Positions 2,245 to 17,852 of a DNA stretch of 64,000 bases are shown here, in pieces. The DNA lies in contig CAIKHO010000007.1 of the NCBI GenBank assembly GCA_903827245.1, forward strand, positions 1 through 64,000. Direction: 5' to 3'. Under the pieces are notes generated by a model. That model was not told the origin of the DNA, made no database searches, and saw only the letters and a list, made by a program, of their open reading frames with translations. Each line of letters starts with the position of its first letter. Position 1 is the stretch's first letter. Position numbers and translations under genes: made by a program. Origin of the DNA: an uncultured Opitutia bacterium (GTDB lineage: Bacteria; Verrucomicrobiota; Verrucomicrobiia; Opitutales; Opitutaceae).

Positions 2245-3348
2245 ATGTCTCATGATGCCGTACCCTATACCGCGCTTTCGGCCGAAGCCGCCTTGGTCAA
2301 GCCAGAGCTCATGCGCGCGGTGGAAAAGGTTCTCGATAGCGGGCGTTACATCCTCGGCCCGGAGTGCGCGGAGTTCGAACGGGAATTTGCCGGGTATTGC
2401 GGAGTCGGGTTCGCGGCCGGGGTAGCCAATGGGACGGATGCCTTGCATCTGGTGCTGCGTGGACTCGGCTTGCGCCCAGGCGACGAGGTCATAACGGCGC
2501 CGAATTCCTTCATCGCTTCAGCGTCCGCCATCGCGCTCGCCGGGGCCAAGCCGGTGTTCGTCGATCTCGGCGATGACGGAAACATGGACCCGGAAAAGCT
2601 GGAGGCGGCGATTTCGAGCCGGACCCGCGCCATCATGCCCGTGCACTTGACCGGTCGCCTGGCGAAGATGAAGGAGATCCTCGCGATCGCTGGAAGACAC
2701 GGCCTGTTTGTGCTGGAGGATGCGGCCCAGGCCATCGGGGCCACCCTCGACGGCCGCCGGGCCGGAAGCTGGGGCGACGCGGCGTGTTTCAGCCTGCATC
2801 CGCTCAAGAATCTCCACGCCTTTGGGGACGCGGGAATCGTCACGACCAATGATCCGGAGGTGCAGGCCAGACTCGTGCAGTCCCGCAATCACGGCCTGGC
2901 CAACCGCGAGCAGTGCGATTTCTGGAGCTTCAATTCGCGCCTGGACGAGATCCAGGCCGCCATGCTCCGGGTGCAGTTGCGGTATCTCGATGCATGGACG
3001 GATCGCCGCCGGACTCTCGCCCTTCGCTACAACGAGCTGCTGCGCCCCTATGTGGGCGTTCCCGACGAGGGACCGGGCGAGCGGTGCGTTTTCCAAACCT
3101 ACATCGTCAGGGCGAAGCGACGGGACGAGCTCAAGCAATACCTGGGCAAAAACGGCGTGGAGACGCTGATCCACTATGCCACGCCCATTCACCTCCAACC
3201 CGCGGCCCGTGATCTGGGCTATACCGCGTCGGATTTTCCCAAAACCATGCAGTACGTGAGCGAAATCCTGACGCTTCCGCTCTATCACACGCTCACCCAC
3301 GTCCAGCAGGATCGCGTGGTGGAACTCATTTCATCGTTCTACAAATAG
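2245..3348 (+). CDS. DegT/DnrJ/EryC1/StrS-family sugar aminotransferase
   Basis: A 367-residue PLP-dependent nucleotide-sugar aminotransferase. Landmarks are GRYILGPECAEFE (about 34-46), VANGTDALHLVLRGLG (about 60-75), EDAAQAIGA (about 158-166) and the PLP lysine K188 in SLHPLKNLHAFGDAG. The chosen ATG gives a normal-length N-terminus with the substrate-loop motif in place; the region just upstream has only a weak purine stretch. The next aminotransferase starts 24 bases after its stop, so the two are probably co-transcribed. The sugar substrate is unknown. It is a distant paralogue of the aminotransferases at 414-1520 and 3373-4476. Confidence 0.9.
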   Translation: MSHDAVPYTALSAEAALVKPELMRAVEKVLDSGRYILGPECAEFEREFAGYCGVGFAAGVANGTDALHLVLRGLGLRPGDEVITAPNSFIASASAIALAGAKPVFVDLGDDGNMDPEKLEAAISSRTRAIMPVHLTGRLAKMKEILAIAGRHGLFVLEDAAQAIGATLDGRRAGSWGDAACFSLHPLKNLHAFGDAGIVTTNDPEVQARLVQSRNHGLANREQCDFWSFNSRLDEIQAAMLRVQLRYLDAWTDRRRTLALRYNELLRPYVGVPDEGPGERCVFQTYIVRAKRRDELKQYLGKNGVETLIHYATPIHLQPAARDLGYTASDFPKTMQYVSEILTLPLYHTLTHVQQDRVVELISSFYK

Positions 3349-3372
3349 CCGCAGCGATCATCTCTTTCGAAA

Positions 3373-4476
3373 ATGCAGGTTCCCTATAACTATCTCGATC
3401 GGCAGTTCGCCGACGTCGAAGACTACTTTCAAGATCTACGGAAGCTCGTCGCGACGGGGGAGTTTACCCTGGGGCCGTTCGTCGAGGCCTTTGAAAAGAA
3501 ATTCGCCGCCTACGTCGGGGCCAAGCATGCAATCGGTACGAATACCGGGACCGGTGCGTTGATCCTTTCGCTCAAGGCGGTCGGAGTCGGGCCCGGCAAG
3601 GAAGTGATCACCGTCGCCAATACTTTCATCGCCACGGTGGGCGCAATTGTCGCGGCGGGCGGGCGCCCGGTATTTGTCGATTGTGACGACAGGTACCAGA
3701 TCGACGTCAGCGCCATCGAGCGTGCGATCACGGTCAACACCGCGGCCATCCTGCCGGTGCACTGGGCGGGCGCTCCGCCGGACATGGACAGAATCCTTGA
3801 GATCGCGAACCGTCGCGGGATTCCCGTCGTCGAGGATGCCTGCCAGGCAGTGGGGGCGAAGATCAACGGCCGTTGCGCCGGGACTTTTGGCAAGACGGGT
3901 ACCTTCAGCATGCACCCGATCAAGCCGCTGAATGTCTGGGGCGATGGCGGCATCATTGTCACGGATGATGACAAGATCGCGAAATTTCTCCGGCTCTACC
4001 GGAACCACGGCATGGTGGACCGGGACCACATCGAGATCTGGGGCGTCAACGACCGCCTGCAGCCATTCCAAGCCGTGGTGGGAAGCCGGGTGCTCGATAC
4101 GGTTGAAGGGCTGATCGAAAAGCGCATTCACAACGCGGGGCTGCTGGATGACGGACTCAAGGGCCTGGAAGCCAAGATCAGCCGGCCGCAGCGGCTGGCG
4201 GGTCACCGCGAGGTTTATCAGCTCTATCTCGTCACCACGAAGCGCCGCGACGAGTTCGTCCGGTTTCTCATCAGCCGCGGGATCGAGGCGAAGGTGCACT
4301 ATCCGATTCCGATTCACCTGCAAAATGCGGCGCGCGACCTTGGCTACAAGCGCGGGGATTTTCCGGTCTGCGAGCGACAGTCGGACGAGGTGGTGACCCT
4401 GCCCGCGCACCAGTATATTACCGGGGAGCAAATCGCGTATATCCTGGCTGTGATCCGCGAATTCTACGCGGAATGA
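3373..4476 (+). CDS. DegT/DnrJ/EryC1/StrS-family sugar aminotransferase
   Basis: A 367-residue member of the same PLP family but from a different branch. It begins MQVPYNYLDRQFADVEDYF and has TNTGTGALILSLKAVG, VVEDACQAVGA and the PLP lysine K184 in FSMHPIKPLNVWGDGG. The active-site Gln of the family is present. It directly follows the aminotransferase at 2245-3348 with a 24-base gap and no terminator, consistent with one transcript. Two consecutive but divergent aminotransferases suggest two different amino positions or two different amino sugars. Exact substrate not recognisable. Confidence 0.9.
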   Translation: MQVPYNYLDRQFADVEDYFQDLRKLVATGEFTLGPFVEAFEKKFAAYVGAKHAIGTNTGTGALILSLKAVGVGPGKEVITVANTFIATVGAIVAAGGRPVFVDCDDRYQIDVSAIERAITVNTAAILPVHWAGAPPDMDRILEIANRRGIPVVEDACQAVGAKINGRCAGTFGKTGTFSMHPIKPLNVWGDGGIIVTDDDKIAKFLRLYRNHGMVDRDHIEIWGVNDRLQPFQAVVGSRVLDTVEGLIEKRIHNAGLLDDGLKGLEAKISRPQRLAGHREVYQLYLVTTKRRDEFVRFLISRGIEAKVHYPIPIHLQNAARDLGYKRGDFPVCERQSDEVVTLPAHQYITGEQIAYILAVIREFYAE

Positions 4477-5701: not shown

Positions 5702-6460
5702 CTAGCGGCCGAAAAACACGCGGCGGACGCGGCGCAGGGTGATGTCGAACAAGGTGTGGCCGGTGGAGACGAAATTGCGGAGGGTCAGGGGCGTGCTTTC
5801 GCGCGGCTTGGTCACATGGCTTCCCGCCACCGCGACCTCGAGATGGGTGGCGCCTTCGTCCAGCAGCATGGTCACGAGGTCGGCTTGAAACCCAAAGCCG
5901 TAATTGTAGGACGCCCAGCGCATGACGTGAAAGCGGCGGTAAATCGGGTGACCGTTGTAGTAGTGGAGCCGGTAGCCGCTGAGCACGTTCACCAGCCAGG
6001 TATAGAATTTAGAAAGGGCGACCCGGGGCCAGCTCTTGCCCGAGATCGTGGCGTGATACGGAATAATTAGATCGGCGTGGCCCAATTCCCGTAGGATCCG
6101 GACGATGAGTTCCTTCGAGTCGACGTTGTCGCCGCATACGAGCCGGTAATACTTGCCGCGACCGCGAAAGGCCGTGTCCACAAAACTGCGGGCGAGCCCG
6201 AGGTTGTAGGGGTTGCGGTGCAACTTGACGGGCAGTTCGGGGTTCCGGCGGCAAAAGTCCCTCACCGCCGCCGAAGTGCCATCGGTCGACGCATCGTCAA
6301 TCACGAAGATCTCGTAGCTGCAGCCCACCTCGCGCGCTGCGGCGCAGGTATTCTCGATGGAGGGGACGACCCGGCTTTCCTCGTTCAGGCAGGGGATGCA
6401 GATGGTCAGGTCCAACTCCTCGCGGATGCCGGTGGGAACGAGCTCGCCGCCGGTCATCAT
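5702..6460 (-). CDS. Family 2 glycosyltransferase
   Basis: A 252-residue GT-A fold enzyme. After a short N-terminal extension it has LDLTICIPCLNEESRVVPSI, then EIFVIDDASTDGTSAAV, the nucleotide-sugar-binding strand and Asp motif of GT2 enzymes. RLVCGDNVDSKELI corresponds to the metal-binding DXD region. No long membrane segment is obvious, so it is likely peripheral on the inner membrane. It probably adds a sugar to a polyprenyl-linked saccharide or to another acceptor made by this locus. Start is either of two adjacent ATGs (6460 or 6457). Confidence 0.85.
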   Translation of the reverse strand: MMTGGELVPTGIREELDLTICIPCLNEESRVVPSIENTCAAAREVGCSYEIFVIDDASTDGTSAAVRDFCRRNPELPVKLHRNPYNLGLARSFVDTAFRGRGKYYRLVCGDNVDSKELIVRILRELGHADLIIPYHATISGKSWPRVALSKFYTWLVNVLSGYRLHYYNGHPIYRRFHVMRWASYNYGFGFQADLVTMLLDEGATHLEVAVAGSHVTKPRESTPLTLRNFVSTGHTLFDITLRRVRRVFFGR

Positions 6461-6571: not shown

Positions 6572-7489
6572 TTATGCGAAGATCTTCGCGTAGAGCAAAT
6601 CCGGATGCAGGCCATGGGCCTTCAACAGGTCGTCATGGGAGCCGTAGCAGTGGATGAATTCGTCCCGCAGGGAAAAGGCGTGCAACCGGCAGCGGGCGCC
6701 GCTCTCAAAGGCCAGCGCCTTCAACTGCTGGCCCAGCCCGCCGACGACGGAATGTTCCTCGACGACGATGACCCGGTCGTATTGGGCCAGGATGCGCGAG
6801 AGGCCCTCGCGGTCCAGTGGCTTCAACGTGTGAATGGAATAGGCCGCCACTTGGCCGCCCTGTTCCCGCTCGATCTTGGCGGTGAGCTCCAGCGCCATCT
6901 TGGTGACGAGGCCAAACGACAGCACGCACGTGCCGGCGCCGCGCTTGATGCAGCGCGCGCGGCCGAACTCGAAAGGCTCGGGGGCGTTCGCGGTCAGCAC
7001 CGGCTCGCCCGCCTTGCCCAGGCGCAGGTACATCGGGCCCGGATGCCGGGCGCATGCCCACACGGCGGCCTCCGTTTCCAGCGGATCGCACGGCGCGAGG
7101 ATGCTCATGTTGGGCAGGGCGCTCATCACGGCGATGTCCTCCTGCGCGTGATGGGTGCCGCCCAGCACCGAATACGTCAGGCCGCCGCCGATCCCGACCA
7201 CGGTCACCGGGAGATTCTGGTAGCAGAGGTCGACGCGCACCTGCTCGAACGGGCGGTAGATCGCAAAAGTAGCGATGGTATAGGCGAAGGGCTTCATCCC
7301 GCGCATGGCCATCCCGGCGCACAGCCCGATCATCGCCTGCTCGGCCACGCCCACGTTGGTGAAGCGCTCGGGGAATTCCTCGCGGTATTGCTGCATGCTG
7401 CCGGCCGGCGAGATGTCCGCGACCACGATGCAGACCTTGGGGTCCGCCTTCGCGACTTGGTAAAGGGTGCGGGAAAAGGTGTCTCTCAT
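6572..7489 (-). CDS. Transketolase, C-terminal subunit (split form)
   Basis: A 305-residue protein carrying the pyrimidine-binding and C-terminal domains of transketolase. NVGVAEQAMIGLCAGMAM includes the conserved Glu that activates thiamine diphosphate; GGLTYSVLGGTHHAQEDIAVM and ILAPCDPLETEAAV are typical of split-transketolase and DXS-like C-halves. It would pair with the N-terminal subunit encoded immediately upstream, with a four-base ATGA overlap. Transketolase moves two-carbon ketol units between sugar phosphates. The location next to a kinase/nucleotidyltransferase fusion and a SIS isomerase suggests a dedicated role in making a sugar precursor rather than central metabolism; that is inference. 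Confidence 0.9.
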   Translation of the reverse strand: MRDTFSRTLYQVAKADPKVCIVVADISPAGSMQQYREEFPERFTNVGVAEQAMIGLCAGMAMRGMKPFAYTIATFAIYRPFEQVRVDLCYQNLPVTVVGIGGGLTYSVLGGTHHAQEDIAVMSALPNMSILAPCDPLETEAAVWACARHPGPMYLRLGKAGEPVLTANAPEPFEFGRARCIKRGAGTCVLSFGLVTKMALELTAKIEREQGGQVAAYSIHTLKPLDREGLSRILAQYDRVIVVEEHSVVGGLGQQLKALAFESGARCRLHAFSLRDEFIHCYGSHDDLLKAHGLHPDLLYAKIFA

Positions 7490-8361
7490 TCGCGGTGGGC
7501 CCGGTCGAGCTCATCGAGAGCCTGCTGATATTCCTGTGGATTCGGTGAGCGGTAGTGCCACATCGGGACATTCTCCATGTAGCTGACGCCCTTGCCCTTG
7601 ATCGTGCGGGCGACGACCATGAGCGGCCGCCCGCCTTTGCGCCCGACGATGGCGTCGTGCACGGCCTGCGGGGAATGGCCATCCACCTCCACCGCCTCCC
7701 AGCCGAACGCGCGGATCTTTTCCGCCACCGGGTAAAAGTTGGGCAGAATCTTGCTCGTCCGTCCGAGCGACTGGAAGTCGTTCAGGTCGACCACGGCGAT
7801 AACGTTTTTCACGCCCAGGCTGGGGGCGAGCATCATCACTTCCCACACGGAGCCTTCCTCGAGCTCTCCGTCGCTCATTACGACATAGACGAGGCGGTCA
7901 TGCTGCTGGATGCCGTCCGCCAGGGACATGCCGACGGCCAGAGCCAGGCCGTGACCGAGCGAGCCAGTCGAGGCCTCGATGCCCGGCAGGCCATAGTCGG
8001 GATGGGTCGCCCGCCGGCCGCCCGGCTGGCAGGTAAGATCCATCTCCTCGGGCGGAATTATACCCATCTCCTCGAGCACCGCATATTGGGCCATGGAGCC
8101 GTGGCCTTTCGACAGGATGAACGTGTCCGGGCTGTTGCCGTCGGCGCCACGGCGCATCACGCCGTGGTAGATCGTGTCCACGATCTCGAGGCAGGAAAAT
8201 GCCCCGCCGATGTGCAGTGCGGAAACCTTCTGAGAGACTTGGAGAATTCGCTTCCGCATCCGCCAGCAACGGGTCCGGGCCTGGACGGGGTCAAAGGGGG
8301 GCTTGGTCGCCGGCCCGGGGCTGGGTGTGAACCGGGTTGTTCCTCGGGCGGGACTGGTCAT
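7486..8361 (-). CDS. Transketolase, N-terminal (thiamine diphosphate-binding) subunit (split form)
   Basis: A 291-residue protein matching the diphosphate-binding half of transketolase. Visible motifs are SALHIGGAFSCLEIVD, LSKGHGSMAQYAVLEE, SLGHGLALAVGMSLAD and the thiamine-diphosphate motif SDGELEEGSVWE followed by VVDLNDFQSLG. The first 35 residues are Pro/Thr-rich and unlike the family; an internal ATG at residue 35 falls inside the conserved first helix, so the upstream ATG is kept although a start between the two is possible. Divergently oriented from the nucleotidyltransferase-kinase gene, with a 173-base shared upstream region that probably holds both promoters. Confidence 0.9.
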   Translation of the reverse strand: MTSPARGTTRFTPSPGPATKPPFDPVQARTRCWRMRKRILQVSQKVSALHIGGAFSCLEIVDTIYHGVMRRGADGNSPDTFILSKGHGSMAQYAVLEEMGIIPPEEMDLTCQPGGRRATHPDYGLPGIEASTGSLGHGLALAVGMSLADGIQQHDRLVYVVMSDGELEEGSVWEVMMLAPSLGVKNVIAVVDLNDFQSLGRTSKILPNFYPVAEKIRAFGWEAVEVDGHSPQAVHDAIVGRKGGRPLMVVARTIKGKGVSYMENVPMWHYRSPNPQEYQQALDELDRAHRE

Positions 8362-8534
8362 GGGGTTGGTCGGTCGAGCGTGAAGCGGGAGGGAGGCAGG
8401 TCAAGGCTGGGTGGGAGGCGGTGATGGTCGGGTTTGAAAACCGCAAGGGAAGCCCCTACTTTCAGTGCAGACGCACCTGCGCCAAATTGCCATTTGCCAT
8501 TTGACGGCCGAGCAAACAAGAGAGTCCGGAAGGA

Positions 8535-10076
8535 ATGAACAAGAGCCCCAAGGAGATTCAATTTGCCGATGCCGAGGCGTTTTTCGACCGGCTGCGCCAG
8601 TCCGGGACCAAGATCGTCCAGTGCCACGGGACCTTCGATCTGCTTCACCCGGGACACATTGCCCACCTCGAGGCCGCTAGGGAGAAAGGGGACGTGCTGG
8701 TCGTGACCTTCACCGACGAGCAGTGGGTCAACAAGGGGCCGGGCCGGCCTTATTTCAACAACCGCCTGCGGGCCAGGAGCCTTTGCGCGCTCCAATGCGT
8801 GGATTACGTAGTGGCGATTCCCTTTCCGGCGGCCACCGAGGCCATCACCGCGGTCAAGCCGCACATTTACTGCAAGGGATCGGAATACGCCTCGGTCGAG
8901 GCCGACGTGACGGGCAACTTCAAGCATGACGTCGAGGCCACGGAGCGGTACGGCGGCCGCGTCGAGTTTGTCGGCGAGACCCTCTTCAGCTCGACCAACC
9001 TGATCAACAAGAACTTCAAGGTCGTCGCGGATGACATCAGGGACTTTTGCCTGACGATCTCCAGCACCTGGTCGCCCGCGGATTTTCGCGCTATCATCGA
9101 CTCCTTCTCCGGCCTCAAGGTCCTGGTGGTTGGCGATGTGATCATCGACCGTTACACGACGGTCGAAGTCCAGGGCATGACCTCCAAGGACCGGATCCTG
9201 AGCGGGCGGTTTATCAACGAAGAAGACCAGAAGGGCGGGGCGCTGGCGATCTACCGGCACCTCAAACAATTTGTCAGCCGGGTGGATATCTGCGGGATTA
9301 TTGGGCGCGAGGCGTGGGCCCAGCGCTGCATCAGCGAGGTAGTCCCGCCGGAATCGGACCTGCTGGTCCGATCGGACCGCTGCACCATCGTCAAGCAGCG
9401 CTTTGTCGAGGCCGTAAAGCCGGGCAAGGAGATCTCAAAGCTTTTTGCGACCAATTACATCGAACGGGAGCTGCCGGACGCCGGGGTCACGGCCAGTCTC
9501 GCCAAAATTATCGAGGAGAAGATTGGCGAGTACGACGTAGTGCTCGCGGCCGACTTCGGGCACGGCACCTGTCAGGACGCCGTGCGCGAGCTGGTGCAGC
9601 GCAAGGCCGCGTTCCTGGCGGTCAACTGCCAGACCAACAGCAATAATCACGGCTTCAATATCATCGACCGGCGCTGGCGCCGGGCCAACGCCTTCAGCCT
9701 GGACCGGACGGAACTCGCGCTGGCGGTCGGGCGGCAAAAATTCGACATCGTTCCGGAACTGGACCGGCTGAAAAGCGGCCTCAGCGCGGACTACGCGTGG
9801 ATCACGCGGGGCGAAGTTGAAACGATCGGGATGAAGACCGGCGCGGTCCCGTGCCGCTGCGTGCCGCTCGAGGTCAACGTCATTGACACCATCGGCGCCG
9901 GCGACGCGTTCTTTGCCCTGGCGGCCCTGGCGGCGGCCTCGGCGGTCCCGCTGCCAATGGCGACCTTCATCGCCCAGCTGGCCGGAGCCCAGGCGGTCCT
10001 GACGGTGGGGAATCGGGAGGCGGTCATGAAGGAACGCCTGCTCAAGAGCGGGATGTCATTGCTGGCGGTGCAATGA
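8535..10076 (+). CDS. Bifunctional sugar nucleotidyltransferase-PfkB kinase fusion (HldE-like, reversed domain order)
   Basis: A 513-residue two-domain protein. Residues about 25-165 form a cytidylyltransferase-like nucleotidyltransferase with CHGTFDLLHPGH (HPGH at 38-41). Residues about 191-513 form a PfkB/ribokinase-type kinase, beginning LKVLVVGDVIIDRY and ending with the signature DTIGAGDAF, whose catalytic Asp is near residue 457. E. coli HldE, which phosphorylates heptose 7-phosphate and adenylylates heptose 1-phosphate, has the kinase first and the transferase second. The order here is opposite, so this is not a plain HldE orthologue. Together with transketolase and a GmhA-like isomerase it suggests synthesis of a nucleotide-activated heptose or similar sugar. 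Confidence 0.85.
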   Translation: MNKSPKEIQFADAEAFFDRLRQSGTKIVQCHGTFDLLHPGHIAHLEAAREKGDVLVVTFTDEQWVNKGPGRPYFNNRLRARSLCALQCVDYVVAIPFPAATEAITAVKPHIYCKGSEYASVEADVTGNFKHDVEATERYGGRVEFVGETLFSSTNLINKNFKVVADDIRDFCLTISSTWSPADFRAIIDSFSGLKVLVVGDVIIDRYTTVEVQGMTSKDRILSGRFINEEDQKGGALAIYRHLKQFVSRVDICGIIGREAWAQRCISEVVPPESDLLVRSDRCTIVKQRFVEAVKPGKEISKLFATNYIERELPDAGVTASLAKIIEEKIGEYDVVLAADFGHGTCQDAVRELVQRKAAFLAVNCQTNSNNHGFNIIDRRWRRANAFSLDRTELALAVGRQKFDIVPELDRLKSGLSADYAWITRGEVETIGMKTGAVPCRCVPLEVNVIDTIGAGDAFFALAALAAASAVPLPMATFIAQLAGAQAVLTVGNREAVMKERLLKSGMSLLAVQ

Positions 10077-10154
10077 CGAAGCCGTCGGGGCAAGTTCCGG
10101 GTGTTTCATCAAACCATCGCCAACTCATGATACCCGCTGTTTCGTCGACCTTTT

Positions 10155-10222
10155 GCAGGAGCCGGCTTGCAGGCGATTTTGGCCCGGTCAACGTCGCTCT
10201 TCGCCTGCAGGCAGGCTCCTCC
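10155..10222. repeat. REP-like palindrome, family A (copy 1)
   Basis: Left arm 10155-10176 begins GCAGGAGCC and contains GCTTGCAGGCGA; right arm 10201-10222 contains TCGCCTGCAGGCAGGCTCC. The arms are near-perfect inverted copies around a 24-base centre. A second copy of the same family lies at 52397-52499. It sits between the kinase fusion and the methyltransferase. Confidence 0.65.
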
Positions 10223-10265
10223 ATTCCAACCAAGCCAGACCCGAAAACCGCTACCTGACCTTCAA

Positions 10266-10928
10266 ATGAAGAAACTGAAAACCTACTTCACGCCTCTGCA
10301 CCGCCGCACACAGCGGAATTATATCGGGCGGATGATGGACGATAAGGTCCACTGCATGGTGAAGGCGAAAATGTACGGGGCCGACTATTGGGACGGCGAC
10401 CGCCGTTATGGCTATGGCGGCTACAAGTACGACGGACGGTGGAAGGCCGTGGCGGAGCAACTGATCGCGGATTACAACCTGACCAACGCGTCCAAGCTGC
10501 TTGATGTCGGTTGCGGGAAAGCCCACCTGATTTATGAAATCAAGCTGCTGCTTCCCGGGATCAGCATAATCGGCCTGGACATCTCCGACCACGCCATCGC
10601 GACCGCACCCGAAGGGATTCGCGAGCAACTTTCCGTGCATCGAGCCCAGGATCCGCTGCCTTACGGCGACAAGCAGTTCGACCTGGTGATTTCGCTCGGC
10701 TGCCTGCACAACCTGCGGATCTACGACCTCAAGGCGGCCTTGGCGGAAATCGCACGCGTCGCGAAGCAGAGTTATTTCATGGTCGAGAGCTACCGCAACG
10801 AACAGGAGCTGTTCAACCTCCAGTGCTGGGCGCTGACCTGCGAGAGTTTCTTCGAGCCGGCCGAATGGGAGTGGGTGATGAATTTGGCTGGATACACCGG
10901 GGACTACGAATTCATCTATTTTGAATGA
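10266..10928 (+). CDS. Class I SAM-dependent methyltransferase
   Basis: A 220-residue protein starting MKKLKTYFTPLHRRTQRNY. An in-frame start 99 bases upstream would translate a palindromic repeat and is rejected. Motif I KLLDVGCGKAHLIYEI, motif II around ISIIGLDISDHAI and a post-II segment FDLVISLGCLHNL are clear. The N-terminus, with KMYGADYWDGDRRYGYGGY, resembles methyltransferases found in polysaccharide clusters next to dehydrogenase and isomerase genes. It probably methylates a sugar or a sugar intermediate in the cytoplasm. Its stop overlaps the next start by four bases (ATGA), so it is translationally coupled to the zinc dehydrogenase. Confidence 0.85.
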   Translation: MKKLKTYFTPLHRRTQRNYIGRMMDDKVHCMVKAKMYGADYWDGDRRYGYGGYKYDGRWKAVAEQLIADYNLTNASKLLDVGCGKAHLIYEIKLLLPGISIIGLDISDHAIATAPEGIREQLSVHRAQDPLPYGDKQFDLVISLGCLHNLRIYDLKAALAEIARVAKQSYFMVESYRNEQELFNLQCWALTCESFFEPAEWEWVMNLAGYTGDYEFIYFE

Positions 10929-11980
10929 AATTCCGCGCCGCCATTCTCGTCGAGTCACGGAAGCCGCTGGTCATCGATGAAATCGAGAGCCTGCCCCTCG
11001 AGGCCGGCCAGGTGCTGGTCAAGGTGCACTGCAGCGGCATTTGCGGCGCCCAGATCAACGAGATCGATGCGGTCAAGGGGGAGGACAAGTTTCTGCCGCA
11101 TCTCTTGGGACATGAGGGCGGCGGCACCGTGGTGGAGGTCGGCGCGGGCGTCAGCCGGGTGAAGCCCGGGCAACGGGTCGTGATGCACTGGCGCAAGGCC
11201 GAGGGCATCAACGCCAAGCCGGCGAAATACCTGTGGGCGGGGCGCAACGTCAACTCCGGTTGGGTCACCACCTTCAGTGATTACTCCGTGGTTTCGGAGA
11301 ACCGGGTCACCCCGGTGTCCGACACGACGCCGGTCGAGATTGCCGCCCTGATGGGCTGTGCCGTGACGACGGCATTCGGCATCGTGAACAACGACGCCAA
11401 CCTCAAGGTCGGCGAATCCGTGGTGGTGCTCGGCTGTGGCGGGCTTGGCCTCGCGGTCCTCATGGCAGCCAAGGCGGCCGGGGCGTGGCCCATCATCGGG
11501 GTGGATATCAAGCCGGAGAAGCTCGAGTGGTCGCGGCAGATGGGGGCGGATGAAACCGTGCTGTACACCAGCAAGGCCCAGCTGGTGCAAGACATCGGCC
11601 GGCTGCTGCCTCGGGGCGTCGATGTCTGCATCGAAAACACGGGCCTCGGGTCGATGATCGAATATGCCTACGAGACCGTGAAGGATCGGACGGGCCGGGT
11701 GATCTTGGCCGGGGTCCCCGACTCCCGCGAGAAAGTCTGCATCCATACGCTCCCGCTTCACTTCGGAAAGATTCTGACGGGCAGCGAGGGCGGACAAACC
11801 CAGCCCGACCGGGACATCCCGCGCATCCTGTCGTTCACGGGGGCGAAGAACATCGATTTGTCAGCGCTGATTTCCCATCGGTTTCCCCTCGAAAAAATCA
11901 ACGAAGGGTTGCTCTTGATGCGTTCGGGCGGCACCAAGCGCGTGCTGATCGAAAATGCCCCGAACGGAAATCCCGGCTGA
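10925..11980 (+). CDS. Zinc-binding medium-chain dehydrogenase
   Basis: A 351-residue medium-chain dehydrogenase/reductase. The catalytic-zinc region HCSGICGAQINEID and GHEGGGTVVEVG are present. VVVLGCGGLGLAVLMAAKAAG is the NAD(P)-binding Rossmann motif, and GVDIKPEKLEWSRQMGADE follows. The four-cysteine structural zinc lobe of classical alcohol dehydrogenases is not visible. It probably oxidises or reduces a hydroxyl or carbonyl on a sugar-derived substrate. Coupled to the upstream methyltransferase by an ATGA overlap and followed 67 bases later by the SIS isomerase, it belongs to the same probable operon. Confidence 0.88.
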   Translation: MKFRAAILVESRKPLVIDEIESLPLEAGQVLVKVHCSGICGAQINEIDAVKGEDKFLPHLLGHEGGGTVVEVGAGVSRVKPGQRVVMHWRKAEGINAKPAKYLWAGRNVNSGWVTTFSDYSVVSENRVTPVSDTTPVEIAALMGCAVTTAFGIVNNDANLKVGESVVVLGCGGLGLAVLMAAKAAGAWPIIGVDIKPEKLEWSRQMGADETVLYTSKAQLVQDIGRLLPRGVDVCIENTGLGSMIEYAYETVKDRTGRVILAGVPDSREKVCIHTLPLHFGKILTGSEGGQTQPDRDIPRILSFTGAKNIDLSALISHRFPLEKINEGLLLMRSGGTKRVLIENAPNGNPG

Positions 11981-12047
11981 TTCCGGCTTCCTGTCGGGCG
12001 ACGCGAAGGCAGTGATTCCAAAATAAAACCGGCGCGGGCCATTTCCC

Positions 12048-12665
12048 ATGAATTTGAACCACTGGATTTCGGAGTACCTTAAGGCCCAGACGGCCGCCCT
12101 GCAGTCTGTGCCGCCACTGGCGATCGAGGGGATTGTGCGACTTTTGGCCGAGGCCGTGGCGAACGACCGGCAGGTGTTTGTGTTTGGCAATGGAGGCTGT
12201 GGCGCGATCGCCTCGCATTTCGCCTGTGACTTGGGGAAAGGGGCCTCGAACGCGCTGGGCCTGCGCTTCCGCGTCCGTTCGCTGAACGACAATATGCCCT
12301 GGATCACGGCCATCGCCAACGATCATGGCTACGAGGACATCTTCTGGCGGCAGTTGGAAGGCCATGCCCGTCCGGGCGATTTGGCCTTCGCCCTCAGTGT
12401 CAGCGGCAAGTCGCCCAACATTGTGAGCGCCGTGAAATGGTGCGCCGCTCATCAGCTGCGCACGGTTGCCTTGGTGGGAGCGGGGGAGGGAAGTGTGGCG
12501 CAACTGGCGGACACGGTCATTTCGATGCCGGAAAAGCACTTTGGCCGGGTCGAGGATGTCTACATGACCATATGCCACGTGATCTCCTACGCCTTTGTGG
12601 AAGGGATCGTCTCGCGTGCCGATTTGACCGCCGGGTCCGGAGCGAAATCTCAAAACGGCGCCTGA
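12048..12665 (+). CDS. SIS-domain phosphosugar isomerase (GmhA-like)
   Basis: A 205-residue single SIS domain protein. FVFGNGGCGAIASHFACDLGKG corresponds to the GmhA motif GNGGSxxDAxHFAxEL, and FALSVSGKSPNIVSA is the phosphate-binding SGxSxN loop. GmhA converts sedoheptulose 7-phosphate to heptose 7-phosphate with a zinc ion. Here the first metal His is kept, the expected Glu four residues later is Asp, and the C-terminal Gln/His/His pattern reads Glu-Tyr-His (VEDVYMTICHVI). The isomerase fold is clear but the substrate may differ from sedoheptulose 7-phosphate. It is the last plus-strand gene of the sugar block. Confidence 0.85.
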   Translation: MNLNHWISEYLKAQTAALQSVPPLAIEGIVRLLAEAVANDRQVFVFGNGGCGAIASHFACDLGKGASNALGLRFRVRSLNDNMPWITAIANDHGYEDIFWRQLEGHARPGDLAFALSVSGKSPNIVSAVKWCAAHQLRTVALVGAGEGSVAQLADTVISMPEKHFGRVEDVYMTICHVISYAFVEGIVSRADLTAGSGAKSQNGA

Positions 12666-12683
12666 ACAGGTAGGAATGTAGGA

Positions 12684-12698
12684 GCGGCTTTATGCCGC
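12684..12698. repeat. Short hairpin GCGGC-TTTAT-GCCGC
   Basis: A perfect five-base stem with a five-base loop, inside a GTAGGAGCGGCTTTATGCCG context that resembles single REP units described in other bacteria. It lies 19 bases after the SIS isomerase stop and just before a larger palindrome. It could stabilise the end of the transcript. Confidence 0.4.
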
Positions 12699-12719
12699 GA
12701 TCATTGGGTCAGTAGGTAC

Positions 12720-12865
12720 AGGTGGCCGCCGACCTCCGGGTGGCGGATTCAGCGTGGCGATGCGCCACACCGCCGCGCGGCCATCTTCGCGAAGGCTACG
12801 GTGCCCTCGCGAAGCCATTGCAGGCCGCCATAGCGAGAGCGCCGGCGGGAGGTCGGCGGCCACCT
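12720..12865. repeat. Long composite palindrome between convergent genes
   Basis: AGGTGGCCGCCGACCTCC (12720-12737) is perfectly repeated in inverse orientation at 12848-12865. The centre holds a GTGGCG/CGCCAC hairpin (12754-12768) and a CTTCGCGAAG-like inverted pair. There is no coding potential and no T-run. It separates the SIS isomerase (plus) from the SDR (minus). It looks like a composite repetitive extragenic element or the remnant of a small non-autonomous mobile element. Confidence 0.6.
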
Positions 12866-12905
12866 TTCAAACATAAGTCCAAAACCAACGGGACGTTGGT
12901 TCGAC

Positions 12906-13922
12906 TCAATGGGCGCCGGATTTTCCCTCGAGGAAACTGAACCAGTTGCGCGTGGCTTGTTCGATGGAGGCGGGATCCCAGACGGGGGCGTCACGCCAAT
13001 AATCGATCACCGCCAGCATCCGCTTCACGCCTTCCTCGAAGGAGACCTGCGGCTTCCAGCCCAATTCCCGCTGGATCTTGGTGATGTCAGCCCAGGTGCA
13101 GTCCGGCTCGCCCGGGCGCTTGGGGAGGTGGATTTTTTCGCCGCCGAGGAGCTCGACGAGGCGGTTGACCGACTGCGGATTGCCTGCGCCGAGGTTGAAG
13201 ACGCCGTTCACGATCGGCGTCGTGGCGGCCAGGCAAAACGCGCGGGCCACATCGGTCACATAGAGAAAATCGCGGCGCTGGGTGCCGTCGCCCACGATGG
13301 TGAACGGCTTGCCCTTGAGTTTTTGCGCGAGGAAGACCCCGAAGACGGCGCCGTAGGCACCCGTGGTCCGGGAGCGGGGGCCATAGGCATTAAAAAGGCG
13401 GATGACGTTCACGGGGAGTCGATACACCCGGCCCCAGTGGAGCACGGCCTGCTCGCCCAGGTACTTGCTGAGCGCATAGGGATATTCGCAGTTGATCGGA
13501 GCCTGCTCGGTGGTGGGCAGCTCCTGGGCCAGGCCGTAGCAGGACGACGAAGCGGCGTAGACAAATTTTTTCACCTGGGCGGCCCGGGCGGCTTCCAGCG
13601 CGCACACGGTGCCGAGCACATTGGCCGACATGTAATCCACGGGACGGTCGATCGAGGGGACGATATCGCCGATCCCGGCGAAATGGACCACCTGGCTGGC
13701 GCCGGCGAACAGGCTGTCCCCCGGCTTGATCTCGCGGATGTCGCGCGTGTCGACGCGCAGATCGGCGTTGCCCTTCAGGTGATCGAGGTTCTGCAGCCGG
13801 CCGCCGACCAGATTGTCCACCACATGCACGCGGCAGCCCTCGGCGAGCAGCAGGTCCACCATGTGGCTGCCGATGAACCCGGCGCCGCCGGTAACGACGG
13901 CCAGTGGTCGGGAGGTACTCAT
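12906..13922 (-). CDS. NAD-dependent nucleotide-sugar epimerase/dehydratase (extended SDR)
   Basis: A 338-residue extended SDR. The start is the ATG at 13922 (MSTSRPLAVVTGGAGFIGSH), which overlaps the previous stop by four bases; the longer reading lacks homology. VTGGAGFIG is the NAD-binding motif, AASSSCYG contributes the serine, and YPYALSKYLGE gives the YxxxK pair. RLFNAYGPRSR and GDGTQRRDFLYVTDVA are hallmarks of UDP-glucose 4-epimerase and GDP/dTDP-sugar dehydratase relatives. It probably epimerises a nucleotide sugar in the same pathway as the coupled SDR upstream. Confidence 0.88.
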   Translation of the reverse strand: MSTSRPLAVVTGGAGFIGSHMVDLLLAEGCRVHVVDNLVGGRLQNLDHLKGNADLRVDTRDIREIKPGDSLFAGASQVVHFAGIGDIVPSIDRPVDYMSANVLGTVCALEAARAAQVKKFVYAASSSCYGLAQELPTTEQAPINCEYPYALSKYLGEQAVLHWGRVYRLPVNVIRLFNAYGPRSRTTGAYGAVFGVFLAQKLKGKPFTIVGDGTQRRDFLYVTDVARAFCLAATTPIVNGVFNLGAGNPQSVNRLVELLGGEKIHLPKRPGEPDCTWADITKIQRELGWKPQVSFEEGVKRMLAVIDYWRDAPVWDPASIEQATRNWFSFLEGKSGAH

Positions 13923-14917
13923 TTCAGGCCGAGGCGCTTGACGACCTTCACATTGATAAACTGGTCGTCGTTCATCGTATTCTGGAAGCGACCGTCCTTG
14001 AACGCATCGCACAGATCGCGGACGGCATCCTCGATGGTGAAGCGCGGTTTCCAGCCGAGCTTCCGATGGATCTTTTTCGAAGAGACATGATAGGAGCGGT
14101 TGTCGTTCGAGGGCGTGGTGGTAATCCGGATCGGCGCCTTGGCCGGAAACTCCCGTTCCACGGTTTTTTTCACGAATTCCGCCAGAGCCGCGACCGTGAA
14201 GTTCTCGTAACCGACGTTGAAGATCTCGCCCGCGACCAGGGCGTCGGGGTACTCGAGCATCTTCACATAAAGCTCGGTGACGTCATCGATATGGATGTTC
14301 GGGCGTTTCTGGGCGCCGCCGAAGACCGTGATGACCCCCTTGTTCACCGCGTGATTGGTGAGAATGTTAATGGTGAGGTCGAACCGCATGCGCGGGGAGT
14401 AACCGCAGACCGTGGCCGGACGCAGCGTGATGCAGGTGAAATCCGGCGATTGGTGCCGGAAGAGCAGGGGTTCGCACAGGACCTTGTACTTGCTGTAGGG
14501 AGTGAGGGGAACGAGCGGGTGTTCCTCGGTGACCTCGGGGGCATCGCTGACCCCGTAGACCGAACTGCTTGAAACATAGATGAAACGGCGGACACCGACC
14601 TCCTTTGCAGCCACGACCATCGGCTCGAAGCAGTCGAAGTTGATCGTGCGGCTGAGTTCCTCATCGAGCTCGAAGCTCGGGTCGTTGGAGATGCAGGCCA
14701 GATGGATCACGCTATGCACCCCCTGGAGTGCGGCGGTGAAGGCGGGGAGGTCGCGGATGTCGCCCTTGATGACCGTGAGGTGGGGATGGTCCGGCAGGCC
14801 CGCGGAGCCGAAAAGCATCAAATCATAGACGACCACCGCATAGCCGGCTGCGAGCAGCTTGGGGACAAGCACGCAGCCCTTGTAGCCAGCGCCGCCGGTA
14901 ACGAGAACTTTCTGCAT
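13919..14917 (-). CDS. NAD-dependent epimerase/dehydratase (extended SDR)
   Basis: A 332-residue extended SDR starting MQKVLVTGGAGYKG at the ATG at 14917. The glycine motif has Lys where Ile is usual (GGAGYKG). SSSSVYG and TPYSKYKVLCE provide Ser and YxxxK. RPATVCGYSPRMRFDL and the C-terminal SNDNRSYHVSSKKI are typical of a branch of SDRs found in surface-polysaccharide clusters. It is the first gene of a two-gene minus-strand unit, translationally coupled (ATGA) to the SDR at 12906-13922. The substrate is unknown; a nucleotide or phosphorylated sugar is likely. Confidence 0.87.
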   Translation of the reverse strand: MQKVLVTGGAGYKGCVLVPKLLAAGYAVVVYDLMLFGSAGLPDHPHLTVIKGDIRDLPAFTAALQGVHSVIHLACISNDPSFELDEELSRTINFDCFEPMVVAAKEVGVRRFIYVSSSSVYGVSDAPEVTEEHPLVPLTPYSKYKVLCEPLLFRHQSPDFTCITLRPATVCGYSPRMRFDLTINILTNHAVNKGVITVFGGAQKRPNIHIDDVTELYVKMLEYPDALVAGEIFNVGYENFTVAALAEFVKKTVEREFPAKAPIRITTTPSNDNRSYHVSSKKIHRKLGWKPRFTIEDAVRDLCDAFKDGRFQNTMNDDQFINVKVVKRLGLK

Positions 14918-15248
14918 GGAGGATAAGAGGCAGAGTGCCGTGCCGTTTTCGGACGGGGCAAGCAAAATGCCGGCCCGGCACGCGGGCTGGATGCACCCCG
15001 CGAATCTGCATCGCATGAATCCAGCGCGGGAAAAGCTTCACGACCGCGACGTTGGTTTCCCGCGGCCAAGCCTGGACAATTACCGGCCGGCCGCGTTTGC
15101 CGGTGCGATCCGGCAAAAGAAAAGCCGGCGCGAATTTTTCCTGAAAAACGCGGCTGCTGGAATTGTAATCAAAAAGCGTTTCGGGGTTGCAATCGACTGT
15201 GAATTCCAGCGGGCTCGACGCTGAATCCGGTCCGTACTTTCCATCGTA

Positions 15249-16661
15249 ATGTTCGCCTTGTTGTCCTCCCGCCCGCGTCGATCCCGGCGTTTTGCCGCGG
15301 TTGTCCTTCTCCTTGCGCCCTTGGTTTTGGCGGCGCAGCCGGCCGCCGATGTGGCGGGTACCATGCCAGAGGACTATCTGCCCGGCCTGAAGGGCATCCT
15401 CGAGACTGCGTTGAAGCAATCGCCGCAGATGCTGACCCAGAACATCAGCCTGGCCCAGGCGGAAGCCGGGCGCATTTCCGGTGAGTCCATACTCTGGCCA
15501 AGCCTGAGCGGTTCGGCGTCCTATGCCTTCAACGGCGCCAAGATCAATTCAGGCGGAAGCAGCACCAGTACCAGCAGCGGCGGCTTTTATGGGATCAACG
15601 TCGGCCAGCCGATCTACCAGTGGGGTGCCTATAAGGCGCAGGCCGATTCCGCCAAGCTGGCCGAGCAGGTTGCCAAGCACCAGTATGCCGAGGCCTACCG
15701 GACCTTGGCCGGCACGCTGCGGTCGCAATACCTCGGGCTGATCGTCCAGAAAATTTCAGTGCGCAACGCCCGTTACCAGCTTGAGCTGGCGGAAAATGAC
15801 CTGGCGATCCAAGAGGAGAACTTCAAGGCCGGCACCGTTTCGGCCGCCGATATGAACCAGCCGCGCATCGGCCTCCAGGAAATGCGGCTCAGCGTCGATC
15901 GGACGACGGAAAACTTTGCGCATGCCCGGCATGCGTATGCGCGCATGGCAGGGCTGGACGACCTCACGGAGGAATCGATCCCCCTGGAAATTCCACACCC
16001 GGCCGATTCATCCGGAAAATCCAAGGATTTGTTGGGCGCATTTGTTCACGAAGGACCCGAAAACAGCCTGCAGGGCCAAATCTGGGATCTCTACCTGAAA
16101 CAGGGTGACCTGTCCTACAAGATTGCGCGTACCCAGCTCTATCCGAAGTTTTCCTTCGGCGCCAGCTATGGCCTGTCTTATTCGCAATCGGCCTTTGCCG
16201 GGACCGTGTCCCAGTCGGCCGTGGTATCATACAGCTACGGCGTGAGTGCAAACTGGACCCTCTTCAACGGTTTCGCCTCGCGGGCGGCCAAGCTGTCCGC
16301 GCTCGCCACCAAGCGTTCCTATGAGCGCCAGCGCAAAACCTACCTCGATGATACGAGTGCCAATGCCCAGGATCTGCAGACCCAGGTCGGCTTTGCCGCC
16401 CGCGCCCTGGAGCTCGCGGAGCAGCACCAGGCACTGGCGGACGACCTGATCAAGCGCGCCACGGCCGAGCTGGGCGAGGGCACGATTGCGCCCGCCACCG
16501 TGAAGGCCTACCGGAGCAATGCCTACGCGGTCGATTATGCGACCAGCAGCGCCCGGGCCGAGTTCTTGAACCGCTGGTCCGAACTTGTCTCGCTGGTCGG
16601 GGCCGACCCCATCCTCAACGCCCTTCCCGTCAGTTATCTCAATCTCAGCCATGGCAAATAA
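15249..16661 (+). CDS. TolC-family outer-membrane efflux protein
   Basis: A 470-residue outer-membrane channel subunit. A basic N-terminus followed by AAVVLLLAPLVLAAQP is a Sec signal peptide. The mature part has the long amphipathic helices and repeated architecture of TolC proteins, with two halves showing related motifs such as GQPIYQWGAYKAQADSAK and WTLFNGFASRAAKLSA. It forms the outer-membrane exit duct of a tripartite exporter. The stop overlaps the start of the membrane-fusion gene by 11 bases, so the four genes to 19795 form one operon. Confidence 0.92.
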   Translation: MFALLSSRPRRSRRFAAVVLLLAPLVLAAQPAADVAGTMPEDYLPGLKGILETALKQSPQMLTQNISLAQAEAGRISGESILWPSLSGSASYAFNGAKINSGGSSTSTSSGGFYGINVGQPIYQWGAYKAQADSAKLAEQVAKHQYAEAYRTLAGTLRSQYLGLIVQKISVRNARYQLELAENDLAIQEENFKAGTVSAADMNQPRIGLQEMRLSVDRTTENFAHARHAYARMAGLDDLTEESIPLEIPHPADSSGKSKDLLGAFVHEGPENSLQGQIWDLYLKQGDLSYKIARTQLYPKFSFGASYGLSYSQSAFAGTVSQSAVVSYSYGVSANWTLFNGFASRAAKLSALATKRSYERQRKTYLDDTSANAQDLQTQVGFAARALELAEQHQALADDLIKRATAELGEGTIAPATVKAYRSNAYAVDYATSSARAEFLNRWSELVSLVGADPILNALPVSYLNLSHGK

Positions 16662-17811
16662 ATCCAACCTCGGTCTCAAGCTTGTCCTTACCTTGGCGGT
16701 GCTCGCCGCTGCGACCATGGTGGGCCTGCGTTTCCTGCGGCCGACCGCCAAGGTCGCGATGGTTGCGCCCGGCCCGGCGTTGAATGCCGTGCCCGGCAGC
16801 GTGGTGGTCCAGTCCGAGGGCGGGACCCGTTCTCTGACCGGTGACGTGGGCGGCCGGATCCTTTGGAGCGAGCCGCTGGACCCCGGCAAGAAATTCAAGG
16901 AGGGCGACGTGCTGGTGCGGCTCGATACCAGCGACATCGAGCTGGAGATCGAGAACATCCAGATCCAACTCGATGCCGCGACCAAGCGGGTCGCGGCCGG
17001 CTCGGCCGTGAAGTTCGAGTACGATACGGCCATGGAAAGCCTGAAGACCACGCAGCGGGCGCATGATCGCGGCCAGGTTTCCGATCTCGATCTCACGCAG
17101 AAGACCCGCGCGGTCCAGGCGACCAAGCAGCGGCTCGATCTCGACGAGGTGGCCAACCAGCAGCAAAAGGACCTCCTGGCGAACAGTCTGAAGGTGAAGC
17201 AAAACCAGCACGAGAAGATGACAATCAAGGCGCCTTTTGACGGCCAGGTCACCGCGGTGTTTGCGCACAAGGGCGACCTCATCAATGCCAGCAGTCCCAT
17301 CGCCACGCTTATCACGACGACCCGCACGGTCGAGGCGAGGATCAGCGAGGAAAACTTCAGCGGGATCAAGTTGGGTCAGAAGGCCTCGGTGACCTTCCTC
17401 GGCGGCATCGCGGGCAATCCCGCCCCCTACATTTACGATGGCAAGGTCAGCAAGATACTGCCGACCGCCGATCCCGATACCCAGCGCTACATTGTCCACC
17501 TTGAGATCAACGTCGATCCGGAGAATCTGACACCGGGCAAGACCGGCGAGGTGTCCATCACGGTCGATGAACATCAGGCCAAGACGATCGTGCCGCGTCG
17601 CGCGTTGCAGGGCCGAACCCTTTATGTGGTGAAAGACGGCCGGGTGGAGAAGCGTGAGGTGGTTGCCGGCTATCTCTGGCTGGATGGCGTTGAGATCACG
17701 AAGGGGGTGCAGGCCGGTGAAGAAGTGATCGTGGATGACATCGACAATTTCCGGGAAGGACAGTCCGTGCGCACCGAGCGGGTCCAGCTGGTTCCCACCA
17801 ACTCCAAGTAG
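16651..17811 (+). CDS. HlyD/RND-type membrane fusion protein (periplasmic adaptor)
   Basis: A 386-residue adaptor. The start MANKSNLGLK at 16651 is chosen because it places a single membrane helix (LKLVLTLAVLAAATMVGL) at the N-terminus; a longer in-frame reading runs inside the TolC gene. GGRILWSEPLDPGKKFKEGD is the first lipoyl half, followed by coiled-coil helices rich in Gln, Lys and Glu, then a second lipoyl half (TIKAPFDGQVTAVFAHKGD) and beta-barrel and membrane-proximal domains. It bridges the inner-membrane permease and the TolC channel. Followed by the permease gene after 41 bases. Confidence 0.92.
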   Translation: MANKSNLGLKLVLTLAVLAAATMVGLRFLRPTAKVAMVAPGPALNAVPGSVVVQSEGGTRSLTGDVGGRILWSEPLDPGKKFKEGDVLVRLDTSDIELEIENIQIQLDAATKRVAAGSAVKFEYDTAMESLKTTQRAHDRGQVSDLDLTQKTRAVQATKQRLDLDEVANQQQKDLLANSLKVKQNQHEKMTIKAPFDGQVTAVFAHKGDLINASSPIATLITTTRTVEARISEENFSGIKLGQKASVTFLGGIAGNPAPYIYDGKVSKILPTADPDTQRYIVHLEINVDPENLTPGKTGEVSITVDEHQAKTIVPRRALQGRTLYVVKDGRVEKREVVAGYLWLDGVEITKGVQAGEEVIVDDIDNFREGQSVRTERVQLVPTNSK

Positions 17812-17852
17812 GCGCCGGCTCATTCCTCGCGTTCGTCCGCCCGCGATTACTG

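Follow-up and report, generated by a model that had tools for sequence, protein, structure and literature searches.

A conserved, modular gene cassette and its predicted role in making a C2-branched, heptose-derived sugar in an uncultured Opitutia bacterium and other phyla

We analyzed the first 64 kb (64,000 nucleotides, hereafter the window) of contig CAIKHO010000007.1 (contig C7), part of the 3.55 Mb assembly GCA_903827245.1 of an uncultured Opitutia bacterium. Near its start lies a set of genes encoding a split transketolase (TK), a nucleotidyltransferase-kinase fusion (FUS), an isomerase of the SIS type (SIS), a methyltransferase (MT), an alcohol dehydrogenase (ADH), and two short-chain dehydrogenases/reductases (SDR1 and SDR2). 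A preliminary description, made from the sequence, had viewed these genes as a self-contained cassette in which TK provides sedoheptulose phosphate for heptose-type activation and the remaining enzymes tailor the product to a modified heptose or a branched or higher-carbon sugar. Open reading frame (ORF) predictions together with Pfam and NCBIfam scans of the window confirmed that every gene it listed, including the split TK and the HldE-like fusion with swapped domains, is an intact ORF at the following positions.

6572..7489, minus strand: TK C-half (TKC), split transketolase with pyrimidine-binding and C domains (Pfam Transket_pyr, Transketolase_C), the probable C2-transferring subunit
7486..8361, minus strand: TK N-half (TKN), split transketolase, binding thiamine diphosphate (ThDP) (Pfam Transketolase_N), with a 4-base overlap with the C-half
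8535..10076, plus strand: FUS, nucleotidyltransferase-kinase fusion, with CTP_transf_like at residues 31-119 and PfkB at residues 377-495
10167..10928 (ORF), plus strand: MT, S-adenosylmethionine (SAM) methyltransferase (Pfam Methyltransf_31/11), likely start near 10266, the partner of the ThDP enzyme
10925..11980, plus strand: ADH, zinc-dependent alcohol dehydrogenase (Pfam ADH_N, ADH_zinc_N), with a 4-base overlap with the MT gene
12048..12665, plus strand: SIS, GmhA-like isomerase with an H-D-E-H site replacing H-E-Q-H (Pfam SIS_2), below the gmhA cut-off
12906..14012, minus strand: SDR1, extended SDR of the epimerase type (Pfam Epimerase/GDP_Man_Dehyd), likely start 13922
13919..15016 (ORF), minus strand: SDR2, probable nucleoside diphosphate (NDP)-heptose C4-dehydrogenase by its closest solved relative, 6vo6, likely start 14917

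Position 14917, previously given as the end of the set, is an in-frame ATG within the SDR2 ORF. The 4-base overlaps of TKN with TKC and of MT with ADH, joined by that of SDR2 with SDR1 when the likely SDR1 start is used, suggest translational coupling. The best solved relative of the C-half was the C-chain of the Carboxydothermus split transketolase (1.7e-52), and that of the N-half was the N-component of a split-chain transketolase (6yak, 4.3e-48). Each half thus has its best match in a split enzyme of solved structure, which makes the window TK a genuine split form.

A search of other genomes, as the preliminary description had proposed, found the gene set again, as a cassette, at 82 non-redundant loci spread over several phyla, including Verrucomicrobiota, Cyanobacteriota, Lentisphaerota, Omnitrophota, Kiritimatiellota, Elusimicrobiota, and Bacillota. 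This recurrence rules out chance clustering. Across the 82 loci, SDR2 was present in 73, SDR1 or another SDR (SDRx) in 69, MT in 50, ADH in 47, and SIS in 39. SDRx (57 loci) and SDR1-type proteins (12 loci) never occurred together, such that the SDR1 type replaces SDRx. The genes lay on a single strand in all 28 relatives with a TK pair and six genes scored, and in all 14 relatives with five genes scored in which E1-type genes take the place of TK. Scattered gene order had been named as evidence that would speak against a cassette; order inside the block varied in detail, for example with SDR2 before or after the fusion, and was not scattered. The fusion itself is sporadic, reaching E 1e-110 or better in 22 of 387 sampled genomes of the phylum. 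One plasmid of Azospirillum oryzae carries the order SDR-SDR-fusion-SIS-SDR-E1alpha-E1beta-DegT-DegT, with two glycosyltransferase genes 3-4 kb beyond. Cultured carriers include Crocosphaera watsonii WH 8501 (TK type) and a Microcoleus strain (E1 type). The cassette is real, conserved, and modular, and the claim that it is self-contained holds.

These counts come from a fusion profile search that returned 112 relatives, of which the best 80 were kept. Seven loci from further relatives were added and five duplicates were dropped before counting (L091, L080, L105, L078, and L124, on the same contigs as G035, G058, G014, G016, and G028). Three loci with a more distant fusion (L048-L050) were held separate. 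Loci were scored with the window proteins plus marker proteins from sister loci, and many contigs end early. Loci flanked by 8 kb or more on each side (40 in all) are called well-flanked here. The fusion scan was seeded with the peptides V[QH]CHGTFD and NCQTNS[NYA]N, DFGHG not being a seed. Trees omit loci without a complete pair of ThDP-enzyme genes and short fragments (FUS < 400 residues, MT and SIS < 150, ADH and SDRx < 250, SDR2 < 200). Loci L067 and L107 are from one genome, L095 and L194 are identical rows in the TK tree, and L135 was left out of alignment A3.

The ThDP enzyme proved to be interchangeable. A TK pair was present in 43 of the 82 loci, an E1 alpha/beta pair in 21, both in none, and neither complete pair in 18. 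The E1 halves are of the pyruvate dehydrogenase type; in the one pair scanned, beta scored 322 bits (subfamily cut-off 321) and alpha 295 (equivalog cut-off 394). They stand alone, with no lipoyl (E2) or E3 motif found in any of the 21 E1 loci. ThDP-enzyme type changed 10 times on the FUS tree (59 rows), with at least 6 changes forced by supported branches, and only once on the MT tree (50 rows, support 100). The corresponding numbers were 3 for the dehydrogenase, 9 for SDR2, 11 for SDRx, and 7 for SIS. Given this contrast, the ThDP enzyme moves together with its methyltransferase, and for the most part with the dehydrogenase, as one module exchanged on the core.

Gene content followed the type of ThDP enzyme. 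Among well-flanked loci, 22 had TK, 10 had E1, and 8 had neither pair; MT accompanied TK in 21 of 22 and E1 in 6 of 10. Over all loci, 34 of 43 TK-type cassettes had ADH, against 11 of 21 of the E1 type. A HAD-type protein was specific to TK (34/43 versus 0/21), and an acetolactate-synthase-like protein to E1 (8/21 versus 0/43). In the L058 copy (6989-8602) of the HAD-type protein, the second part contains an APH kinase domain; the L045 copy had no Pfam match, and a search of the window did not find this HAD-APH protein.

SDR2 points to the chemistry preceding this module. A profile built from 13 cassettes matched 6vo6 at 9.2e-64, the sole PDB sequence at or below 1e-40, and the window SDR2 alone matched it at 3.2e-38 (next match 1.8e-24). 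We take 6vo6 to be Cj1427, the GDP-heptose C4-dehydrogenase. The paper on the 6vo6 structure is cited in PMC7949155, and Cj1427 makes GDP-4-keto-heptose (PMC10680097). With 6vo6 as its closest solved relative by profile, SDR2 is a probable NDP-heptose C4-dehydrogenase, a kinship through which it would supply the ketone needed by a branching enzyme and tie the core to heptose. It was present in 40 of 43 TK loci and 20 of 21 E1 loci. SDR1 has an SSSCYG motif and lacks the dehydratase D-E pair.

The fusion places its nucleotidyltransferase first and its PfkB kinase second, the reverse of HldE. In a single-protein scan it fell below every equivalog cut-off (kinase 99.6 of 345, nucleotidyltransferase 92.9 of 181.5, HldE 133.2 of 521), and both order and scores place it outside the HldE equivalog. 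Over 74 aligned copies, both H and the G of HPGH and the G, G, and D of GAGD were invariant, as were D, G, H, and G of the kinase motif DFGHG, whose second position was F in 61 copies and Y in 13. In the other kinase motif, NCQTNSNN, six of eight positions were conserved in 73 or 74 copies and one in 48. Conservation of CHGTFD and NCQTNSNN is partly by construction because the scan was seeded with these peptides. The genome's own HldA has DYAKG and DPK where FUS has DFGHG and NCQTNSNN in the alignment. An AlphaFold2 model of FUS (mean predicted local distance difference test score 89.9) was closest to HldA (4e84, Z 33.4, 305 aligned residues, root-mean-square deviation 2.6; next family Z 29.0), a likeness that concerns the kinase domain only, which filled the lists of fold matches. 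Among solved structures, the nucleotidyltransferase part had its best single match in an ethanolamine-phosphate cytidylyltransferase. Judged by its modeled fold, the kinase would work like a heptose kinase yet is outside the HldE equivalog.

The isomerase shows a similar departure. The zinc ligands of GmhA are H61, E65, Q175, and H183 (PMC5387315). Among 40 cassette copies, H61 was kept in all, E65 was replaced by D in all, Q175 by E in all, and H183 was kept in 38; the window copy keeps both histidines and carries both replacements, in agreement with the altered metal site described earlier. Its score (95.4 versus a gmhA cut-off of 209.45) and these replacements set it apart from GmhA. Also as described, no GmhB-like protein was found in the window; two GmhB-like genes elsewhere in the genome, on contigs C17 and C30, exceeded the cut-off of the broader TIGR01656 domain. 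The same genome contains an ordinary GmhA (C74) with the usual H-E-Q-H residues, an ordinary HldA (C30, 323 bits, cut-off 345), and an ordinary HldC (C85, 140 bits, cut-off 181.5). The latter two are also under the curated cut-offs, though by much less than the cassette domains, which those searches scored at 101 and 96 bits. An HldD (ADP-glyceromanno-heptose 6-epimerase) over the NCBIfam cut-off lies on the same contig as the cassette, at 31326-32276 of the window (minus strand). By these matches, the cassette is a second, specialized heptose-type set beside ordinary heptose genes. A further SIS and GmhB-like pair lies on contig C17 of the same genome (G000:C17, 6552-7625) and marks a possible third heptose-like locus.

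Heptose-type activation logic is supported by the HldA-like kinase fold of the model, the domains related to GmhA and HldE, and the kinship of SDR2 to 6vo6. That part of the preliminary description stands for isomerase, kinase, and nucleotidyltransferase but not for TK as the supplier of sedoheptulose phosphate. As for the product, the branched or higher-carbon alternative is now favored over a modified heptose because TK is better read as adding a C2 branch to a ketosugar, and the interpretation as a whole is partly supported. No other single account fits these sequences as well as heptose-type activation with subsequent C4 oxidation and C2 branching.

Under this account, SIS would start from a ketose phosphate, with sedoheptulose 7-phosphate drawn from ordinary metabolism as the likeliest, and turn it into an aldose phosphate; FUS would phosphorylate C1. 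A GmhB-type phosphatase encoded elsewhere would take off the other phosphate, after which FUS would attach the nucleotide. SDR2 would then oxidize C4 to give an NDP-4-keto-heptose, and the split TK would add a hydroxyacetyl unit to the ketone, creating a branched tertiary alcohol; in sister cassettes, pyruvate would serve the E1-type enzyme as the source of an acetyl branch. Completion of the new branch would fall to the dehydrogenase and methyltransferase, and adjustment of stereochemistry to SDR1. The scheme draws on observed gene content, conservation, interchange of the ThDP enzyme, co-inheritance of the methyltransferase, residue changes, kinase fold, and the relationship of SDR2. We infer each reaction, the order of steps, the nucleotide (ADP, CDP, or GDP), and the position of the branch from sequence. 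On balance, we give even odds to the view that the cassette product is a C2-branched, nucleotide-activated sugar derived from heptose and destined for a surface glycan. Somewhat more tentative is the wider proposal of a modular, multi-phylum pathway to nine-carbon, C2-branched sugars made from heptose, with a slot that would take either a split TK (hydroxyacetyl) or a stand-alone E1 (acetyl), each with its own methyltransferase.

Each part of this scheme resembles a known system. The cassette shares with the GmhA-HldE-GmhB pathway to ADP-heptose its logic of isomerase, C1 kinase, and nucleotidyltransferase, as well as the kinase fold, but differs in its reversed fusion, sub-cut-off domains, H-D-E-H site, other kinase motifs, and absence of GmhB from the window. 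With Campylobacter jejuni GDP-heptose modification it shares the expected 4-keto-heptose intermediate, 6vo6 (Cj1427) being the closest solved relative of SDR2. The cassette differs from it in having a ThDP carboligase module. In yersiniose synthesis, YerE transfers activated acetaldehyde to a CDP-4-keto sugar (PMC12247030). Like the cassette as we read it, that pathway involves C2 branching of an NDP-4-ketosugar for surface polysaccharide, and TK relatives occur in RfbF-RfbG-RfbH operons. The cassette, in contrast, has a split TK or E1 rather than the decarboxylase type of YerE and a heptose-type core rather than a CDP-dideoxyhexose.

Branching by TK and E1 types also has precedents. The review PMC12247030 names only three ThDP superfamilies as known to use ketone acceptors: DC (YerE-like), TK, and alpha-KADH2 (E1-type). 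It lists 13 putative ketone-acting split TKs, all from streptomycetes and none characterized in vitro, and describes proposed hydroxyacetyl transfer to a ketosugar by those of miharamycin and amipurimycin, which resemble the cassette TK by description. For the alpha-KADH2 type, E1-like branching precedents are AviB1/AviB2 and Pau11/Pau12 (PMC4425429). These likewise consist of E1 alpha and beta halves, as in sister cassettes without E2 or E3 nearby, although they act in actinobacterial antibiotics, and the likeness is again one of description.

The proposed pathway has competitors. The ThDP enzyme, methyltransferase, and dehydrogenase could build a separate residue or substituent, such as another ketosugar or an acyl-like group, and be co-located with the core because both feed one glycan. 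The module is swapped, and is absent, independently of the core, as would be expected from such an arrangement. Related TKs also occur without FUS, and a split TK stands by nonulosonate genes on a Solidesulfovibrio plasmid. Against this, MT and ADH were found in none of the 8 well-flanked loci lacking a pair; among all 18 loci without a complete pair, MT was in none and ADH in 2, both on short contigs. The ThDP-enzyme genes lie a median of 3.2-4.0 kb from FUS, and SDR2, the possible ketone source, is nearly always present with either type. We consider a separate residue unlikely.

The original model has the split TK supplying a ketose phosphate (sedoheptulose or some longer ketose) for isomerization by SIS and activation by the fusion. 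We counted residues over 44 copies (43 loci plus the window) by the numbering of E. coli TK, in which S385, H461, and D469 are sugar-phosphate/acceptor residues. Equivalents of H26, H66, H261, E411, H473, and GDG were kept in 44/44, as expected of a ThDP site, and so was that of R358. These residues, TK family membership, and co-location with SIS and FUS are consistent with a ketose phosphate supplier. Conversely, the acceptor equivalents were replaced in all 44 copies: H461 (G in 43), D469 (L in 38), and S385 (R in 36). At these three positions the cassette TKs depart from ketose-phosphate transketolases, while the genome's own full-length housekeeping TK keeps all three. Splitting is not the cause of the loss because the Carboxydothermus split TK keeps H and D at the H461 and D469 equivalents. 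E1-type halves replace TK in 21 of 82 loci, and all 8 well-flanked loci without either pair keep SIS and the fusion. A pyruvate-type enzyme would yield a 1-deoxyketose, which an aldose-ketose isomerase could not convert to an aldose. The ThDP enzyme is therefore unlikely to make the SIS substrate, we rejected TK as its supplier, and we regard the original model as quite unlikely.

Last, the cassette might be an ordinary duplicate of the ADP-heptose pathway, formed by local gene shuffling with no new chemistry. Homology of every activation domain to GmhA and HldE speaks for this. Against it, all three domains fall far under equivalog cut-offs, domain order is reversed, the changes at the SIS metal site and in the kinase motifs are shared among copies, and GmhA-, HldA-, GmhB-, HldC-, and HldD-type genes are already present elsewhere in the genome; we consider it very unlikely.

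Returning to C2 branching of a ketosugar, we considered where relatives of the cassette TK are encoded. The best-listed annotated plasmid relative, from Methylovirgula (40%), lies in the operon rfbF-rfbG-SDR-rfbH-TKN-TKC, and a Paenibacillus plasmid TK adjoins rfbF-rfbG. Both share with cassette TKs a G at H461, a residue other than D at D469, and K at R520. TKs beside LysW-aminoadipate, nonulosonate, or TRAP transporter genes lack that G and K. Searching the phylum gave 96 matches in 79 genomes, and neighborhoods were examined for 40, mostly the strongest. Two of these resemble the plasmid operons: L213 has RfbF-TKN-TKC-SDR-RfbG-RfbH (RfbG and RfbH over cut-off, RfbF 280 of 300) and L215 has TKC-TKN-RfbG-RfbF (both Rfb proteins over cut-off). 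By analogy, TK would occupy the place of YerE in RfbF-RfbG-RfbH operons. Cassette TKs and these relatives are thus encoded among NDP-ketosugar-forming enzymes, though relatives occur elsewhere too.

Several observations weigh against this assignment and against the scheme built on it. The H100 equivalent is Q in 31 of 44 copies and H in 12, including the window. Both plasmid CDP-ketosugar TKs keep the S385 equivalent, unlike cassette TKs, and that of Methylovirgula lacks R358. The phylum search profile contained two CDP-ketosugar TKs and therefore leans towards such TKs. The motif GxGxxYxxxGxTH is not specific, as it also occurs in 27 of 27 phylum TKs labeled as having neither cassette nor CDP-ketosugar neighbors. 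A TK by cobalamin/radical-SAM-type genes (L152) has the G at H461 but not the K. The same pocket motif marks a 17-row split-TK clade (L195-L204, L206-L210, L212, and L214). In the sole member examined closely (L202, 8660-19337), TK lies by URO-D, MttB-like, class-III aminotransferase, and E1 genes in a catabolic-looking setting, and this clade is perhaps a catabolic counterpart. On the TK tree, the five CDP-ketosugar TKs do not group together (5 changes), and the window TK forms a long, weakly placed branch outside the starred groups. Because the L202 clade and the cobalamin-type TK share it, the TK residue signature does not prove ketosugar branching, and we treat it as supporting evidence only.

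Features of the loci add to these points. Of the 22 well-flanked TK loci, only 8 had SIS close to FUS. Two of the 8 well-flanked loci without a pair carry a distant ORF resembling a ThDP enzyme on the other strand (acetolactate-synthase-like at 38% in L041, TK-like at 23% in L129). The window layout described earlier required correction: relative to its single-strand relatives, this copy is rearranged, with the TK and SDR pairs on the minus strand. Its SIS is divergent, with an end branch of 1.87 on the SIS tree and 35% identity to the nearest copy. Its SDR1-SDR2 pair has 75-78% DNA identity to a pair standing by a different fusion in G031 and G023 (27-29% protein identity to the window FUS), and the window may therefore be a mosaic.

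In the open-access literature searched, we found no description of the cassette, its gene combination, or the interchange of carboligases. The parts themselves are of known kinds. If the proposed pathway is correct, branched higher-carbon sugars are expected as a class in the surface glycans of Verrucomicrobiota, Lentisphaerota, Omnitrophota, and Cyanobacteria, among others. Ketone-accepting split TKs, which PMC12247030 presents only as Streptomyces proposals, would then have a place in bacterial surface glycans. Many split TKs would become candidate catalysts for tertiary-alcohol formation, a TK function that the same review calls still pending. Where annotation now offers only vague labels (transketolase, PfkB kinase, SIS), there would be an ordered set of steps open to testing, with the TK and E1 types predicted to differ in mass.

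Upstream of the cassette, two further features of the window are possible members.

5702..6460, minus strand: family 2 glycosyltransferase (GT2; Pfam Glycos_transf_2), possible member, with a relative in 8 of 82 cassette loci
2245..4476, plus strand: neighboring pair of DegT/DnrJ/EryC1 aminotransferases, possible extended part, with relatives near other cassettes

Relatives of the aminotransferases at 41-52%, likewise paired, stand beside other cassettes (e.g., L044, L058, L064, L115, L116, and L137), and the pair is seldom present overall (degT2 in 9 and degT3 in 7 of 82 loci). On the other side, genes named TolC, HlyD, FtsX, and LolD from sequence alone follow the SDR pair (15249-19795, plus strand); relatives of TolC, HlyD, and FtsX also come after the related SDR pair in G031 (L048).

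Some loci were unusual in other ways. Directly upstream of one E1-type cassette (L131, 881-7606) are three ORFs that resemble flagellin (NCBIfam confirmed one of them) and a protein of 1005 residues, part of which is GT4-like. In a motif scan of 130 loci, flagellin neighbors were found only at L131, so flagellin as a general target is unsupported. Locus L119 holds two TK pairs (12.5-19.8 kb). Loci L048, L049, and L050 contain a second subfamily of swapped nucleotidyltransferase-kinase fusions, 27-33% identical to the window FUS, by orthologs of the window SDR1-SDR2 pair; L048 also holds GFO/IDH/MocA, UDP-glucose-dehydrogenase, NUDIX, and E1 genes. Finally, the Solidesulfovibrio plasmid pDCAR1 (L150) carries a distant fusion and SIS by three radical SAM genes; its split TK stands apart from these, beside pseudaminate-type and methyltransferase genes.

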